DNA of 64,000 nt from Bacteroidales bacterium (GCA_017546605.1 JAFYSH010000006.1:1-64000), one strand, 5' to 3'; shown: positions 2,436 through 6,878, counted from the stretch's first letter. Notes: a model not told the origin generated them from the sequence alone. Program-made: numbers and translations.

Positions 2436-3053
2436 TTAAAAAGCGATACCTAATTTAAAGCCAATATTATTCAATCCGTTCAAGTCAAAATCACCATTGC
2501 GGTTGGTTGAATAGCTGTAATAAATAGCAAGATGGAAACCAAAATCTTGTTTATAGAACGGATATACAGTAAAGCCCAATTCCGGAGAAACATAGAATCC
2601 CCAATTGGAATACTCACTCATAAAGGTAGAGAAATACAGGGATTGGGTGGAATAGACCGCCCCGACCTTGGCTTCAAAGTACGGCTGGAACATTGTTCGC
2701 ATGAAACGATACCGGAATGTGGCTCCGAAAGGAACTTGGAACAACGAATGATCCAAGTCGGTGGTCAGTGCCGACCCATCCTCGAACCAGTAAGTTTTGG
2801 TGGGAATGTATTGGTTATTGGTATTGTAACTCAAAAAACCGCCGACTGCTATGGACGGAGTCAGGTAATATCCTCCTTGATAATATGCACCGTAACCCGA
2901 CGCGTGCGTCACAAAATCATTGGCAATCGGAACATTGTATTGCCATCCAAGGTTGGAGTAGGTGCGTTTTCCCATTTGCGCCATCGCCTGAAAACTGCTG
3001 GCAACAGCGAAAAAAACCATCATCAATGCAATTGTATACTTTTTCATCTTCAT
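2436..3053 (-). CDS. Small outer-membrane beta-barrel protein, module copy 2
   Basis: 205 residues with a signal peptide (cleavage likely after AMAQ, about residue 26) and a mature part of alternating hydrophobic and aromatic strands, many Gly-Tyr pairs and a terminal Phe, the usual signal for BAM insertion. The family is not known to me by name. It is clearly a paralogue of 4445-5059: both mature chains begin QMGKR, share QPYFEAK, SNWGFYVSPE and YYSYSTN, and end FKLGIAF. It follows the DUF4136 gene by 5 bp and precedes galM by 1 bp. A structural or surface role is likely; substrate unknown. Confidence 0.8.
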   Translation of the reverse strand: MKMKKYTIALMMVFFAVASSFQAMAQMGKRTYSNLGWQYNVPIANDFVTHASGYGAYYQGGYYLTPSIAVGGFLSYNTNNQYIPTKTYWFEDGSALTTDLDHSLFQVPFGATFRYRFMRTMFQPYFEAKVGAVYSTQSLYFSTFMSEYSNWGFYVSPELGFTVYPFYKQDFGFHLAIYYSYSTNRNGDFDLNGLNNIGFKLGIAF

Positions 3054-3058
3054 CGAAT

Positions 3059-3688
3059 TTAACGTTTGAGGTACGGTGATTGGGCAAATGCTTGGTGGAT
3101 AGATTCCGTCAGGCGATTCAAATCTTGCTTGAGAGAAGATCCTGTCGGTCCGCTCATAATCGCATTCCAGACAACCGGAAGACGTTGGTTTTCTCCCTGC
3201 ACGGCAGTAAGATCCAACAAATTGGAAATCATCATATTGGTAGAAGTAGTGTACATCATCGCGGACGGATAATAGAATCCGTACCAGTCACCCCAGTAAG
3301 CAGGAGACCAATAGCCCGGGCCATACCACCACCAGTAAGGATCGTAGTATTCCACATAGTATTGCGTAAAAATGATGTAGGTCAACTGCAAACCCAAATC
3401 TGCCTGACTGCGGTCAGCCACATAGGTATAACCACAATTTTCCATCTCACCTTTAAAGGTTTCAATAATGCTCAACGCATCCTTATCGCTCACGTAGTAA
3501 GGATCCTTTTCAATCCCAGCCACCAACAAACTATCGGGCACATGGTAGGTTTGGAATACCTTAAAATCAATCGCTTCTGCGGGGGTCGTATAGACCATAT
3601 AATCCTCATCGTGGTCTTGTGTGCGAGGCTGACGATAACACGACAAGGCCAACATAGCCACTAGCCCTAAACAAATAAACTTTTTCAT
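3059..3688 (-). CDS. DUF4136 family lipoprotein, module copy 2
   Basis: 209 residues. The N-terminus ends in a lipobox LALSC (Cys about residue 17), so it is a lipoprotein. The body fits the DUF4136 family: an early YxTPAEAIDFKVFQTYHVPDS block, a SQADLGLQLTYI strand, then a strongly aromatic segment (about residues 112-140) rich in Tyr, Trp, Gly and Pro, and a C-terminal helix ending IHQAFAQSPYL. The family function is unknown. A paralogue with the same layout is at 5085-5738. It sits between a DUF4251 gene and a barrel gene in the same order as the other copy. Confidence 0.85.
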   Translation of the reverse strand: MKKFICLGLVAMLALSCYRQPRTQDHDEDYMVYTTPAEAIDFKVFQTYHVPDSLLVAGIEKDPYYVSDKDALSIIETFKGEMENCGYTYVADRSQADLGLQLTYIIFTQYYVEYYDPYWWWYGPGYWSPAYWGDWYGFYYPSAMMYTTSTNMMISNLLDLTAVQGENQRLPVVWNAIMSGPTGSSLKQDLNRLTESIHQAFAQSPYLKR

Positions 3689-3720
3689 AGAATGTAACTA
3701 TTATTAATTTTCTAACTCAT

Positions 3721-4347
3721 CTATCGTGATTTACCCTCGAATATAGCCGATTCCTCATAAGGAAAGACTTCACCCTGCAGGTTTAAGCTCATGGAGTCAA
3801 AGTTCTGAGTAACCGTAGCCGAAGCCCGGTTGGTGGACGGACGCAAGTGGATCTGCACCTGCGCATGGATCCCTGTACCGATCACATCAAAAGAATAGGT
3901 CACTTTCCCTTTCTTTCCCTCGCGTACCTTGAATCCGGAGATACTACCATCCAAGGTCACTCCACCGATTCCATTCGGTCCTGCCGCCATGGTATTGGAG
4001 ACCACTTGGACAACCGCACGATCACCTTGCACGGCGATGAAATTGGTGGTCGGATTTACGTAGCCCACCGGTCCCCGCTTGAAAGACACATTGTCGGCTT
4101 GTAAAACAAAACTATGGTTCTCAATGGCCAGACGCGCTTGCACCCCCGCCAAGGAATCGGCCAAGGATTCAGCTCGTTTCTCCTCCTTGGAGCGCGCATT
4201 GAACTCCTGCATATCGTTCAACCAATTTTCATGATTTTGTCTGCGTCTTTCCTGACGTTCCGAACGGCTGTTCTGTGCGTACACATCCAACGAGAAAGCA
4301 GACAGGGCCAATGCCGCCATTAGAAAGAATGTAATAATCCGTTTCAT
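3721..4347 (-). CDS. DUF4251 family exported protein, module copy 2
   Basis: 208 residues with a signal peptide (cleavage near VYAQ). A charged, Arg/Glu-rich stretch (about residues 27-60) precedes the DUF4251 domain, seen in the pattern FVLQADNVSFKRGP, NPTTNFIAVQGDRAVVQ, GPNGIGGVTLDGSISGF and a C-terminal block on the theme of RASATVTQNFDS. The domain function is unknown; it is probably periplasmic. It is first in its three-gene module and has its own promoter box at 4376-4383. The paralogue is at 5761-6378. Confidence 0.85.
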   Translation of the reverse strand: MKRIITFFLMAALALSAFSLDVYAQNSRSERQERRRQNHENWLNDMQEFNARSKEEKRAESLADSLAGVQARLAIENHSFVLQADNVSFKRGPVGYVNPTTNFIAVQGDRAVVQVVSNTMAAGPNGIGGVTLDGSISGFKVREGKKGKVTYSFDVIGTGIHAQVQIHLRPSTNRASATVTQNFDSMSLNLQGEVFPYEESAIFEGKSR

Positions 4348-4375
4348 ACGATTACCAATTGGGTTAATGACGTTA

Positions 4376-4383
4376 CAAAAATA
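4376..4383 (-). promoter_or_regulatory. Promoter -7 box for the second envelope module
   Basis: TATTTTTG on the minus strand matches TAnnTTTG and lies 28 nt before the DUF4251 start at 4347. It overlaps the T-tract of the terminator that ends the first module, so terminator and promoter are packed together. No clear -33 TTTG was found. Confidence 0.5.
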
Positions 4384-4420
4384 ATAAAAAACCGCAGTAA
4401 AACGAGAGTTTACTGCGGTT
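4382..4420 (-). terminator. Rho-independent terminator after the first envelope module
   Basis: AACCGCAGTAAA (4390-4401) and TTTACTGCGGTT (4409-4420) form a perfect 12-bp stem with a 7-nt loop, followed on the minus strand by TTTTTATTAT. It lies 25 bp past the stop of the barrel gene at 4445 and separates the two module copies into two transcripts. Confidence 0.85.
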
Positions 4421-4444
4421 GCATGGTAAAATCATCACAAAATG

Positions 4445-5059
4445 TCAAAATGCAATCCCCAGCTTGAATCCCAGGTTGTTAAGTCCATGAATATCAAATC
4501 CGTCGTGATGATTGGTCGAATAGCTGTAATACGCAGCAAAATGAAAACCGACATCATCTTTATGGAACGGGTAGTAACTCAAACCAATTTCCGGAGAAAC
4601 GTAGAATCCCCAATTGGAAACCCGACTGATGAACGTGGACATATAGACACTTTGTAAAGAATACTCGGCCCCTATTTTTGCCTCAAAATAAGGCTGGAAT
4701 TCGCACCACGAAGCCCTCATCCGAACAGAAACCCCAAAGGGAGTCTGAAAAATGGAGCGATACAGATCGGTGGTTACGGCAGCCCCATCTTCCAATTGAT
4801 AGGTCTGCTTCGGGTAGTATTCATCATTCGTTCCAAAGCTACTGAACGTTCCAACCGCCAGCATCGGCGTTACATAATAACCACTTTGTATATATGCGCC
4901 ATATCCTTGAGCCCGATCTACAAATTGATTGCTGATAGGGGCATTGAACTGCCATCCGATATTGATATAACTCCTTTTACCCATTTGGGCATCGGCCTCA
5001 TTGACCAGCAGCAAGAATGCAAAGAGGCTCACCAGGAGGCAGGTTAACTTTTTCATCAT
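4445..5059 (-). CDS. Small outer-membrane beta-barrel protein, module copy 1
   Basis: 204 residues. Signal peptide with likely cleavage after EADA (about residue 24), then a barrel-like chain with alternating aromatic residues and terminal Phe. It aligns along its whole length with 2436-3053, with clear divergence in loops, so the duplication is not recent. It is third in its module, 25 bp after the DUF4136 gene, and followed by a strong terminator. A cysteine in WCEFQ is absent from the other copy. Ligand and function are unknown. Confidence 0.8.
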   Translation of the reverse strand: MMKKLTCLLVSLFAFLLLVNEADAQMGKRSYINIGWQFNAPISNQFVDRAQGYGAYIQSGYYVTPMLAVGTFSSFGTNDEYYPKQTYQLEDGAAVTTDLYRSIFQTPFGVSVRMRASWCEFQPYFEAKIGAEYSLQSVYMSTFISRVSNWGFYVSPEIGLSYYPFHKDDVGFHFAAYYSYSTNHHDGFDIHGLNNLGFKLGIAF

Positions 5060-5084
5060 TGTTAAAATTTAAAGGTTCATAACA

Positions 5085-5738
5085 TCAATTGATGGTTTGC
5101 GGCTGACGAACATCCAAATAAGTGGATTGTTTGAATGCCTGATCAATAGACTCTTTCATCCGGCGCACATCGTAATACAGACTCGGACCGGCAGGTCCTC
5201 CCATGTAAGCCGCCCACACCACATTCAAAGCTTTTCCATTCCCCGGATTAGCGGTAAGATCCACCATATCTGCCAACAATGCATTCGTCGAATAGGTATA
5301 AGTCATCGGACCAGGATAATAATATCCATACCAGTCTCCCCAGAAATTAGGGTTCCAATAACCCGGATAGTCAATCCACCAATACGGGTGTTCATAATAT
5401 TGCACAAAACGTTCGGTATGAACAATATACGTTAATTGCACCCCCAAGTCGGCTTCCGCCCGATTGGTGGTAGAGAGGTAACCATAATGAATCATATTGT
5501 CCGCAAATTCCTGAATCAACGCCTGTGCGTTCACCGATTCTGAATAATATGGCTGACTACCTTGACCGATAACCAACAAACTATCAGGCAGGTAAAAGAG
5601 TTTGAACTTTTGGAAATCCATACCCTTTGCCGGAGCAGTATAGACCAGGTACTCATTATCCGGGTCTAGCGTAGAGGGTTCTTTTTGGCATGCGACAGCC
5701 ACCAGAACCCCTATCATTAAATAGAGAATCTTTTTCAT
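5085..5738 (-). CDS. DUF4136 family lipoprotein, module copy 1
   Basis: 217 residues. Lipobox VAVAC (Cys about residue 17). The DUF4136 pattern is seen as YTAPAKGMDFQKFKLFYLPDS, AEADLGVQLTYIVHT, then an aromatic, Gly/Pro-rich segment (YWWIDYPGYWNP, FWGDWYGYYYPG) and a closing helix IDQAFKQSTYL. It is a paralogue of 3059-3688 with the same domain order and an extra C-terminal tail. Expected to be anchored in a membrane facing the periplasm. It lies 22 bp after DUF4251. Confidence 0.85.
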   Translation of the reverse strand: MKKILYLMIGVLVAVACQKEPSTLDPDNEYLVYTAPAKGMDFQKFKLFYLPDSLLVIGQGSQPYYSESVNAQALIQEFADNMIHYGYLSTTNRAEADLGVQLTYIVHTERFVQYYEHPYWWIDYPGYWNPNFWGDWYGYYYPGPMTYTYSTNALLADMVDLTANPGNGKALNVVWAAYMGGPAGPSLYYDVRRMKESIDQAFKQSTYLDVRQPQTIN

Positions 5739-5760
5739 CTTTCTAAAAATTAATGGGTTA

Positions 5761-6378
5761 TTACAAACTATTACCTTCTACGACCCTCGAGTTTTCATAC
5801 GGAACGACCTGTCCGGTCATCCAAACAGTGTTGGAATTGAAATTGGGATAGACAGTCGCTGTCGCACGGTTGCTGTCTGCATTCAGGTAGATTTCTACTT
5901 GTGCATTGATTCCGATGCCGACCACATTGAAGGAGAAGGCCACCTTTCCGGACCGGCTTCGCCTCAGCTCCCGAGCACTGATCACTCCTTCCACCGTTAC
6001 ACCTCCCAATCCATTCGGACCTGCAGGAAAGGCATTCGGTGCAATCTGAACAACCGCCCGGTTCCCTTTGATCGAAATAAAATTGGTCGCAGAGTTCACA
6101 AATACGACGGGACCTGTCCGAAAGGAAACACTTTCTGCCTCCAGCACAAAGTCCTGATTCTGAATAGCTGCATAGGCCTGCACCCCTGCAAGCGAATCAG
6201 CCAGATACCGCAGGTGACGGCGCTGGTCGGAGCGTGCACGAAATTCCTCCATATCCCGTTCCCATGCTTGGATCCGATCTCTCAGTCGATGCCCATCCCT
6301 GTGTTGGGCAACCGCTGGCAGGAACCCCAAGGCCAATCCCGCCAGACTAAAAATTAAAATTCTTGATAACCGTTTCAT
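5761..6378 (-). CDS. DUF4251 family exported protein, module copy 1
   Basis: 205 residues. Signal peptide (cleavage near PAVAQ), an Arg-rich linker with RHLRYLADSLAGVQAYAAI, then the DUF4251 domain: FVLEAESVSFRTGP, FVNSATNFISIKGNRAVVQ, GPNGLGGVTVEGVIS, and RATATVYPNFNSN. It is a paralogue of 3721-4347; the LADSLAGVQA block shared by both suggests a conserved binding surface. First gene of the module. Upstream is a pair of direct repeats (6413-6434) and no exact promoter box. Confidence 0.85.
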   Translation of the reverse strand: MKRLSRILIFSLAGLALGFLPAVAQHRDGHRLRDRIQAWERDMEEFRARSDQRRHLRYLADSLAGVQAYAAIQNQDFVLEAESVSFRTGPVVFVNSATNFISIKGNRAVVQIAPNAFPAGPNGLGGVTVEGVISARELRRSRSGKVAFSFNVVGIGINAQVEIYLNADSNRATATVYPNFNSNTVWMTGQVVPYENSRVVEGNSL

Positions 6379-6412
6379 AACATCACTTTTTAATCGTGTA
6401 CCTTAGAGAAGG

Positions 6413-6434
6413 CAAAGTGCATACCAAAGTGCAT
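6413..6434 (-). repeat. Direct repeat pair upstream of the first envelope module
   Basis: CAAAGTGCAT occurs twice with a 12-bp period (6413-6422 and 6425-6434), 35-56 bp before the DUF4251 start. On the minus strand each copy reads ATGCACTTTG, which ends like a -7 box but lacks its TA. It may be an operator or a variant promoter. Confidence 0.45.
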
Positions 6435-6454: not shown

Positions 6455-6462
6455 TATCTTTG
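6455..6462 (+). promoter_or_regulatory. Promoter -7 box, plus strand, ahead of a candidate small RNA
   Basis: TATCTTTG, an exact TAnnTTTG match. No sizeable plus-strand gene follows; a transcript starting near 6468 would run into the terminator at 6582-6619. Confidence 0.5.
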
Positions 6463-6467
6463 CAAAT

Positions 6468-6619
6468 GGTTGATATTGCCTACTCGCAGCACGTGGAAAG
6501 CCCCCATTTCAAGGTTACAATGCCTATTATAAACTGATAAGCGAATATCATGGAAGATACGATATCGTGGTGTTATAATACAAAAAGATCTGACAAGGCT
6601 AGCCTTATCAGATCTTTTT
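6468..6619 (+). ncRNA. Candidate small RNA (or short peptide transcript)
   Basis: About 150 nt lie between a consensus promoter box and a strong intrinsic terminator on the plus strand. Inside are a possible 23-codon frame from the ATG at 6466 (MVDIAYSQHV...) and, in another frame, a longer open stretch without a start. Self-complementary pieces such as ACGATATCGT near 6569 could fold. It does not resemble SRP RNA, tmRNA or RNase P RNA as far as I can tell. The region could also be a decayed gene. Confidence 0.35.
6582..6619. terminator. Bidirectional rho-independent terminator
   Basis: A 38-bp near-perfect palindrome: AAAAAGATCTGA and TCAGATCTTTTT flank AAGGCTAGCCTT, itself a palindrome, with one C/A mismatch on each side. 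Both strands end in a T-run, so it can stop transcription from the DUF2795 side (minus) and from the candidate small RNA (plus). Confidence 0.85.
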
Positions 6620-6656: not shown

Positions 6657-6878
6657 CTAATACTCCTCTTCGTTAAAGAAGAAATCTTCTTTGCTGGGAT
6701 AATCCGGCCAAATCTCTTCAATACTTTCGTACACTTCTCCATCATCTTCGAGATCTTCCAGATTTTCAATCACTTCCAAGGGCGCACCAGAACGAGTTGC
6801 ATAGTCAATCAACTCTTCTTTCGTAGCAGGCCAAGGAGCATCCTCCAAACGGGATGCAAGTTCCAAAGTCCAATACAT
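6657..6878 (-). CDS. DUF2795 domain protein
   Basis: 73 residues, acidic. The pattern MYWTLELASRLEDAPWPATK, then ELIDYATRSGAPLEVIENL, then DYPSKEDFFFNEEEY is the conserved short Bacteroidetes protein carrying DUF2795. No signal peptide or membrane segment, so cytoplasmic. Function is unknown. It is last in a minus-strand group after the cobalamin adenosyltransferase, but has its own promoter box at 6920-6927 and a strong terminator just downstream. Confidence 0.9.
   Translation of the reverse strand: MYWTLELASRLEDAPWPATKEELIDYATRSGAPLEVIENLEDLEDDGEVYESIEEIWPDYPSKEDFFFNEEEY

Follow-up and report, generated by a model that had tools for sequence, protein, structure and literature searches.

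Gene organization of the locus

The window, by which we mean the whole 64,000-nucleotide stretch of DNA analysed here, comes from a gut bacterium and carries two tandem gene trios, each encoding a DUF4251 protein, a DUF4136 lipoprotein and an eight-stranded barrel in that order. All six ORFs lie on the minus strand. Copy A (6378-4445) is transcribed first and is followed head-to-tail by copy B (4347-2436), with a strong terminator in between. The features of the locus, in the direction of transcription, are as follows.

6412-6427, minus strand: sigma-54 (-24/-12) type promoter, candidate for copy A, TTGGTATGCACTTTGC, 33 nt 5' of the ATG
5761-6378, minus strand: copy A DUF4251 protein, 205 aa; signal peptide ending AVA before Q (by inspection); PF14059 7.9e-28, 97.6 bits
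5085-5738, minus strand: copy A DUF4136 lipoprotein of 217 aa, with QKEP after the lipobox Cys; PF13590 1.2e-17, 65.2 bits
4445-5059, minus strand: copy A predicted outer-membrane beta-barrel, 204 aa; C-terminal Phe; OMP_b-brl PF13505 2.2e-5, below the curated cut-off
4390-4420, minus strand: copy A intrinsic terminator, 12-bp stem and T run; dG -16 kcal/mol, z -6.0
4376-4383, minus strand: possible housekeeping -7 box of copy B, TATTTTTG, just behind the copy A terminator
3721-4347, minus strand: copy B DUF4251 protein, 208 aa; PF14059 5.6e-29, 101.3 bits; model ma559025302d3
3059-3688, minus strand: copy B DUF4136 lipoprotein of 209 aa, with YRQP after the Cys; PF13590 2.2e-19, 70.8 bits
2436-3053, minus strand: copy B predicted outer-membrane beta-barrel, 205 aa; eight strands; PF13505 7.2e-8, above the cut-off; AlphaFold2 pLDDT 89.9

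An earlier note on this DNA had described two adjacent trios of the same order and direction, the first with a strong terminator of its own. The six ORFs were confirmed with the coordinates listed above and the Pfam assignments agree, both copies passing the curated cut-offs of PF14059 (27 bits) and PF13590 (32.8 bits), while the terminator was recovered with the stem, folding energy and T run given in the list. No further DUF4251 or DUF4136 genes were found in this genome, of which the assembly is 87% complete.

Several minor features were seen around the trios. On the plus strand, window positions 6457-6612 hold a TATCTTTG box, a short frame and an overlapping frame resembling a frameshifted small gene, the whole ended by a two-way terminator. 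A small DUF2795 gene (PF11387) with its own terminator lies upstream of the trio on the minus strand at 6658-6878, and an intergenic run of G residues is located at about 206-219.

Protein families, folds and export signals

Both DUF4251 proteins score above the PF14059 cut-off, and the copy B model, in which a beta domain follows a long N-terminal helix, has the fold of the structural-genomics proteins of this family (PDB 3fyf and 4gdz; TM 0.80-0.92). Both DUF4136 proteins combine a PF13590 score above the cut-off with a lipobox cysteine, a residue found in lipobox-like form in 98 of 104 homologues, and by sequence they belong with the structural-genomics protein PDB 4f54, their solved relative (2.7e-48). 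In the papers that we found, no function is assigned to DUF4251, DUF4136, the barrel, 3fyf, 4gdz or 4f54, and none of these papers describes the trio, in agreement with the earlier note. DUF4251 has a single mention, in an expression table for low iron (PMC10434189), and a Burkholderia operon includes DUF4136 as a member of unknown role (PMC5192318). Two candidate relationships were tried and rejected: a profile comparison showed no similarity between the DUF4136 protein and the LptE-like protein of this genome (probability 0.9%), and the fold matches of DUF4251 to LolA or lipocalins are non-significant (E 0.02 and above, TM about 0.3).

The model places the barrel in the eight-stranded OmpX/OmpA class, with eight predicted strands, a signal peptide and a C-terminal aromatic residue; 99/106 homologues end in Phe. 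It has no sequence relatives in the PDB, and the folds nearest to the copy B model are those of Ail, OmpX, OmpA and NspA (11-18% identity). The window barrel is like these proteins in its eight strands, size, C-terminal Phe and confident model, but unlike them it is encoded immediately downstream of a DUF4136 lipoprotein gene in almost all of the loci seen. With Ail, OmpX, OmpA and NspA as the best structural matches, one may envisage a surface role in which an OmpX/Ail-like barrel serves adhesion or protection and is displayed with the lipoprotein, although the similarity is one of fold at low sequence identity and we regard such a role as unlikely. The DUF4136 lipoprotein start C-(Q/H/R)-K-(E/D)-P recalls the lipoprotein export signal (LES) of Bacteroidetes, namely C-X-K-(D/E)2 after the lipid-bearing cysteine with K-(D/E)2 as the minimal form (PMC5080379), and to that extent would speak for surface display. 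Even the minimal form differs from what is seen here, however, since copy A (CQKEP) has the Lys and one acidic residue followed by Pro, and copy B (CYRQP) lacks both the Lys and an acidic residue.

In Bacteroidales, nutrient uptake commonly involves a lipoprotein paired with a barrel. On this general ground, the barrel could be a small channel or docking protein and the lipoprotein its binding partner, the two copies serving two ligands as the earlier note had proposed, and the fold matches of DUF4251 to lipid-binding proteins such as LolA and lipocalins, weak and below significance, would fit. The barrel, however, belongs to an OmpX/OmpA/NspA-like class that usually has no substrate-sized pore, and no recognisable transport gene accompanies the operon in the loci examined. 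We therefore consider ligand capture or uptake improbable, and the proposal of different ligands found no support.

Distribution of the trio and of the DUF4136-barrel pair

Of 247 genomes of the order, 59 contain DUF4251, 39 a close relative of the DUF4136 protein and 38 the barrel. The DUF4136 and barrel genes adjoin nearly everywhere across the order, with DUF4251 mostly at other places or absent. A scan of the named genomes that bear the barrel yielded 80 loci, 48 of them of the Cryptobacteroides type (L094-L141) and 32 others. All 48 of the former, which form no random sample because they were located through the barrel, carry DUF4251, DUF4136 and barrel genes in this order, once each and with varying neighbours. 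The DUF4136-barrel pair stands without DUF4251 in 31 of the 32 other loci (Bacteroidaceae, Coprobacter, Barnesiella, Parabacteroides and Rikenellaceae). When 150 genomes were drawn evenly from the window's own family, a close barrel was found in 10, with DUF4251 adjoining in nine. The exception is G263, the one further genome of the genus, which has a single DUF4136-barrel pair at the corresponding position (with a downstream epimerase that is 75% identical) and in which no DUF4251 was found (assembly 86% complete).

The trio is a fixed unit in one clade only, the Cryptobacteroides-type Bacteroidales, and outside this clade the unit conserved across the order is the DUF4136-barrel pair; under the refuting condition that the earlier note had set, DUF4251 is a clade-specific and not a core partner. 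The earlier note's suggestion of a conserved unit is supported within the clade, both in the 48 loci and in the family sample, but not as a general rule, in view of the pair-only loci outside it and of G263. The main rival to the explanation that we propose below is that the pair alone is the functional unit, with DUF4251 as a co-regulated passenger that has a separate periplasmic job. This is a real but lesser possibility: it is favoured by the wider order, where DUF4251 is moreover present in many genomes that lack the pair, and by G263, which despite the loss of DUF4251 keeps the pair and its sigma-54-type site TTGGTACAAACTTTGT, whereas it is opposed by the 48 conserved loci, all of which keep DUF4251 first in varied genomic contexts, and by the window itself, where both copies retained DUF4251 after an old duplication. 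Tandem copies of the DUF4136-barrel pair that arose separately and lack DUF4251 were also seen in other families (L161, L171 and L172; G135 and G232).

History of the duplication

The proteins of copies A and B are 51% (DUF4251), 48% (DUF4136) and 60-61% (barrel) identical. Their third codon positions are just 36-40% identical, and the synonymous sites are therefore saturated and the duplication is old. Copies A and B are sisters in the maximum-likelihood trees of all three families (support 94/95 for the barrel, 87/88 for DUF4136 and 93/88 for DUF4251). Each tree alone is moderate evidence, since all support values stay below the starred level and the DUF4251 tree brings long branches together, but the agreement among the three is stronger evidence than any single tree. 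As the copies are sisters in three families, the trio was probably duplicated as one block within the genus, and the comparison of paralogue trees supports the old joint duplication that had been suggested earlier. The genes of G263 nest as sister of copy A in the DUF4136 and barrel trees; in broader quick trees, the DUF4136 gene of copy B was unplaced. The simplest history would be a block duplication in the genus, after which G263 lost copy B and the DUF4251 gene.

Copy B has the longer branch in each of the family trees (0.66 vs 0.29, 1.24 vs 0.23 and 1.03 vs 0.59). At 55 near-invariant DUF4251 positions, 12 are changed in copy B vs 4 in copy A; the copy B barrel and DUF4136 protein retain nearly all of their near-invariant positions.

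A candidate sigma-54 promoter upstream of the trio

The new observation of this work is that the trio operons bear a putative sigma-54 (-24/-12) motif, which is present at copy A and absent from copy B. The motif, TTTGGYnCGyACTTTG[CAT], has the GG-N10-GC spacing of sigma-54 promoters and is in most cases found some 45-52 nt 5' of the start codon. In the form TGG-N8-TTG[ACT] it was found in 38/51 trio upstream regions vs 7/308 for other genes in the same loci (Fisher p about 5e-33, a value that is overstated because related genomes are not independent). It precedes 3/40 pair-only DUF4136 genes, or 0/40 in a tighter form, and 1/28 lone DUF4251 genes. Sigma-54 control of the trio appears to be specific to one clade and, given that pair-only loci elsewhere lack the site, may not mirror the basic job of the pair.

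The site of copy A, which has the GG-N10-GC pattern 33 nt from the start codon and is conserved in relatives, is a candidate promoter at 6427-6412 that the earlier note had missed. Scans of the genome and of the window detected no sigma-54 motif in the 97-nt spacer before copy B. The box that the earlier note had assigned to copy B is indeed present in this spacer but is weak on its own, because such a form arises in 10% of shuffled spacers; copy B is probably read from a housekeeping promoter. As a general trio promoter the housekeeping -7 box was rejected, the strict form TAnnTTTG occurring at chance level in 48 upstream regions (6 seen, 6.9 expected). With a terminator between them and differing promoters, the two copies look like separate transcripts, as had been claimed, and the promoter difference supports that part of the earlier proposal in which the two versions serve different conditions.

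We consider it very unlikely that the upstream motif is an operator or the promoter of another sigma factor. At many loci the -12 element ends in A or T and the evidence is that of sequence, which leaves some room for such a reading, but the GG-N10-G spacing, the consensus and the position fit the sigma-54 pattern, the same motif precedes grpE, and RpoN is encoded in nearly all of these genomes.

Sigma-54 machinery and putative regulon

RpoN is encoded in the bacterium's own genome and in 140/150 genomes of its family. The genome has two full-length sigma-54 activators, of which one, an NtrC-like response regulator, is encoded next to a histidine kinase, and the other has no receiver domain and is directly followed by an LptE-like lipoprotein gene (C17:5437, L199). 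A genome-wide search with the motif TTGGYNNRNNNTTTGC returned 19 sites vs 6 for the reversed control. Five intergenic sites lie 33-47 nt 5' of genes for a malic enzyme, an enolase, a GrpE-like protein, a choloylglycine-hydrolase-family protein and of copy A, the names of the four non-trio genes being read from N-terminal sequence and not from a profile search. Enolase and malic enzyme suggest that the putative regulon concerns metabolism besides stress. The sites of a small candidate regulon, 34-47 nt upstream, were recorded at C6:41656, C9:12561, C9:41123 and C19:19872 (L205, L208, L209 and L216).

Chaperone and protease genes of Bacteroidota are reported to be enriched for sigma-54 promoters (PMC12316311), and grpE of B. 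thetaiotaomicron is sigma-54-dependent according to a statement in the same source that cites other work. The regulon described there (grpE, groES and other chaperone/protease genes) shares its promoter form with the trio, and the grpE of the present genome carries this form too. The trio products are likewise predicted to be at the cell exterior, in line with the 'bacterial exterior' theme of sigma-54 (PMC3162934). What differs is that we found no mention of the DUF4251-DUF4136-barrel trio as a regulon member.

Proposed role of the trio

Our preferred explanation, to which we would give an even chance, is that the trio is a stress-inducible sigma-54 operon for outer-membrane maintenance, block-duplicated in the genus, of which copy A kept the sigma-54 promoter and copy B lost it and diverged faster. 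Sigma-54 RNA polymerase would switch on the trio within the sigma-54 stress and proteostasis programme of Bacteroidota. After the duplication, copy A would have stayed sigma-54-driven and inducible, and copy B would have left this control, probably for a housekeeping promoter. The eight-stranded barrel would reside in the outer membrane with the DUF4136 lipoprotein anchored beside it, the periplasmic DUF4251 protein would be an added partner recruited by the clade, and the three together may keep the outer membrane stable, or repair it, under stress. The step from a grpE-like sigma-54 promoter to envelope stress is one that we infer. A more specific mechanism, which we think has a small chance of being correct, is a dedicated sigma-54 quality-control complex in which DUF4251 would carry a lipid or an unfolded client through the periplasm and hand it to a DUF4136-barrel acceptor, duplication and promoter replacement having given inducible and constitutive versions.

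Under the preferred explanation of a stress-inducible maintenance operon, three uncharacterised exported families gain a testable setting, a clade-wide operon under putative sigma-54 control in a phylum where sigma-54 appears to assume heat-shock duties. The DUF4136-barrel pair also occurs in cultured Parabacteroides and Coprobacter, which offer a genetically more accessible test of its core function, and the duplicated locus would clearly illustrate how, after a block duplication, one copy loses its promoter and diverges faster.

The neighbourhood of the pair elsewhere is also of relevance. In 12 ruminant Bacteroidaceae loci (L143, L150, L151, L153, L154, L156-L159, L164, L165 and L170), the same DUF4136-barrel pair comes directly after genes for an S41 protease and an NlpE-domain lipoprotein of the envelope-stress type, in that order, and this position points to envelope quality control. 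In the window's clade, the first slot belongs to DUF4251 and this arrangement was not seen. In L150, the S41-NlpE-DUF4136-barrel cluster lies directly 3' of the gene for ribosomal protein S16.
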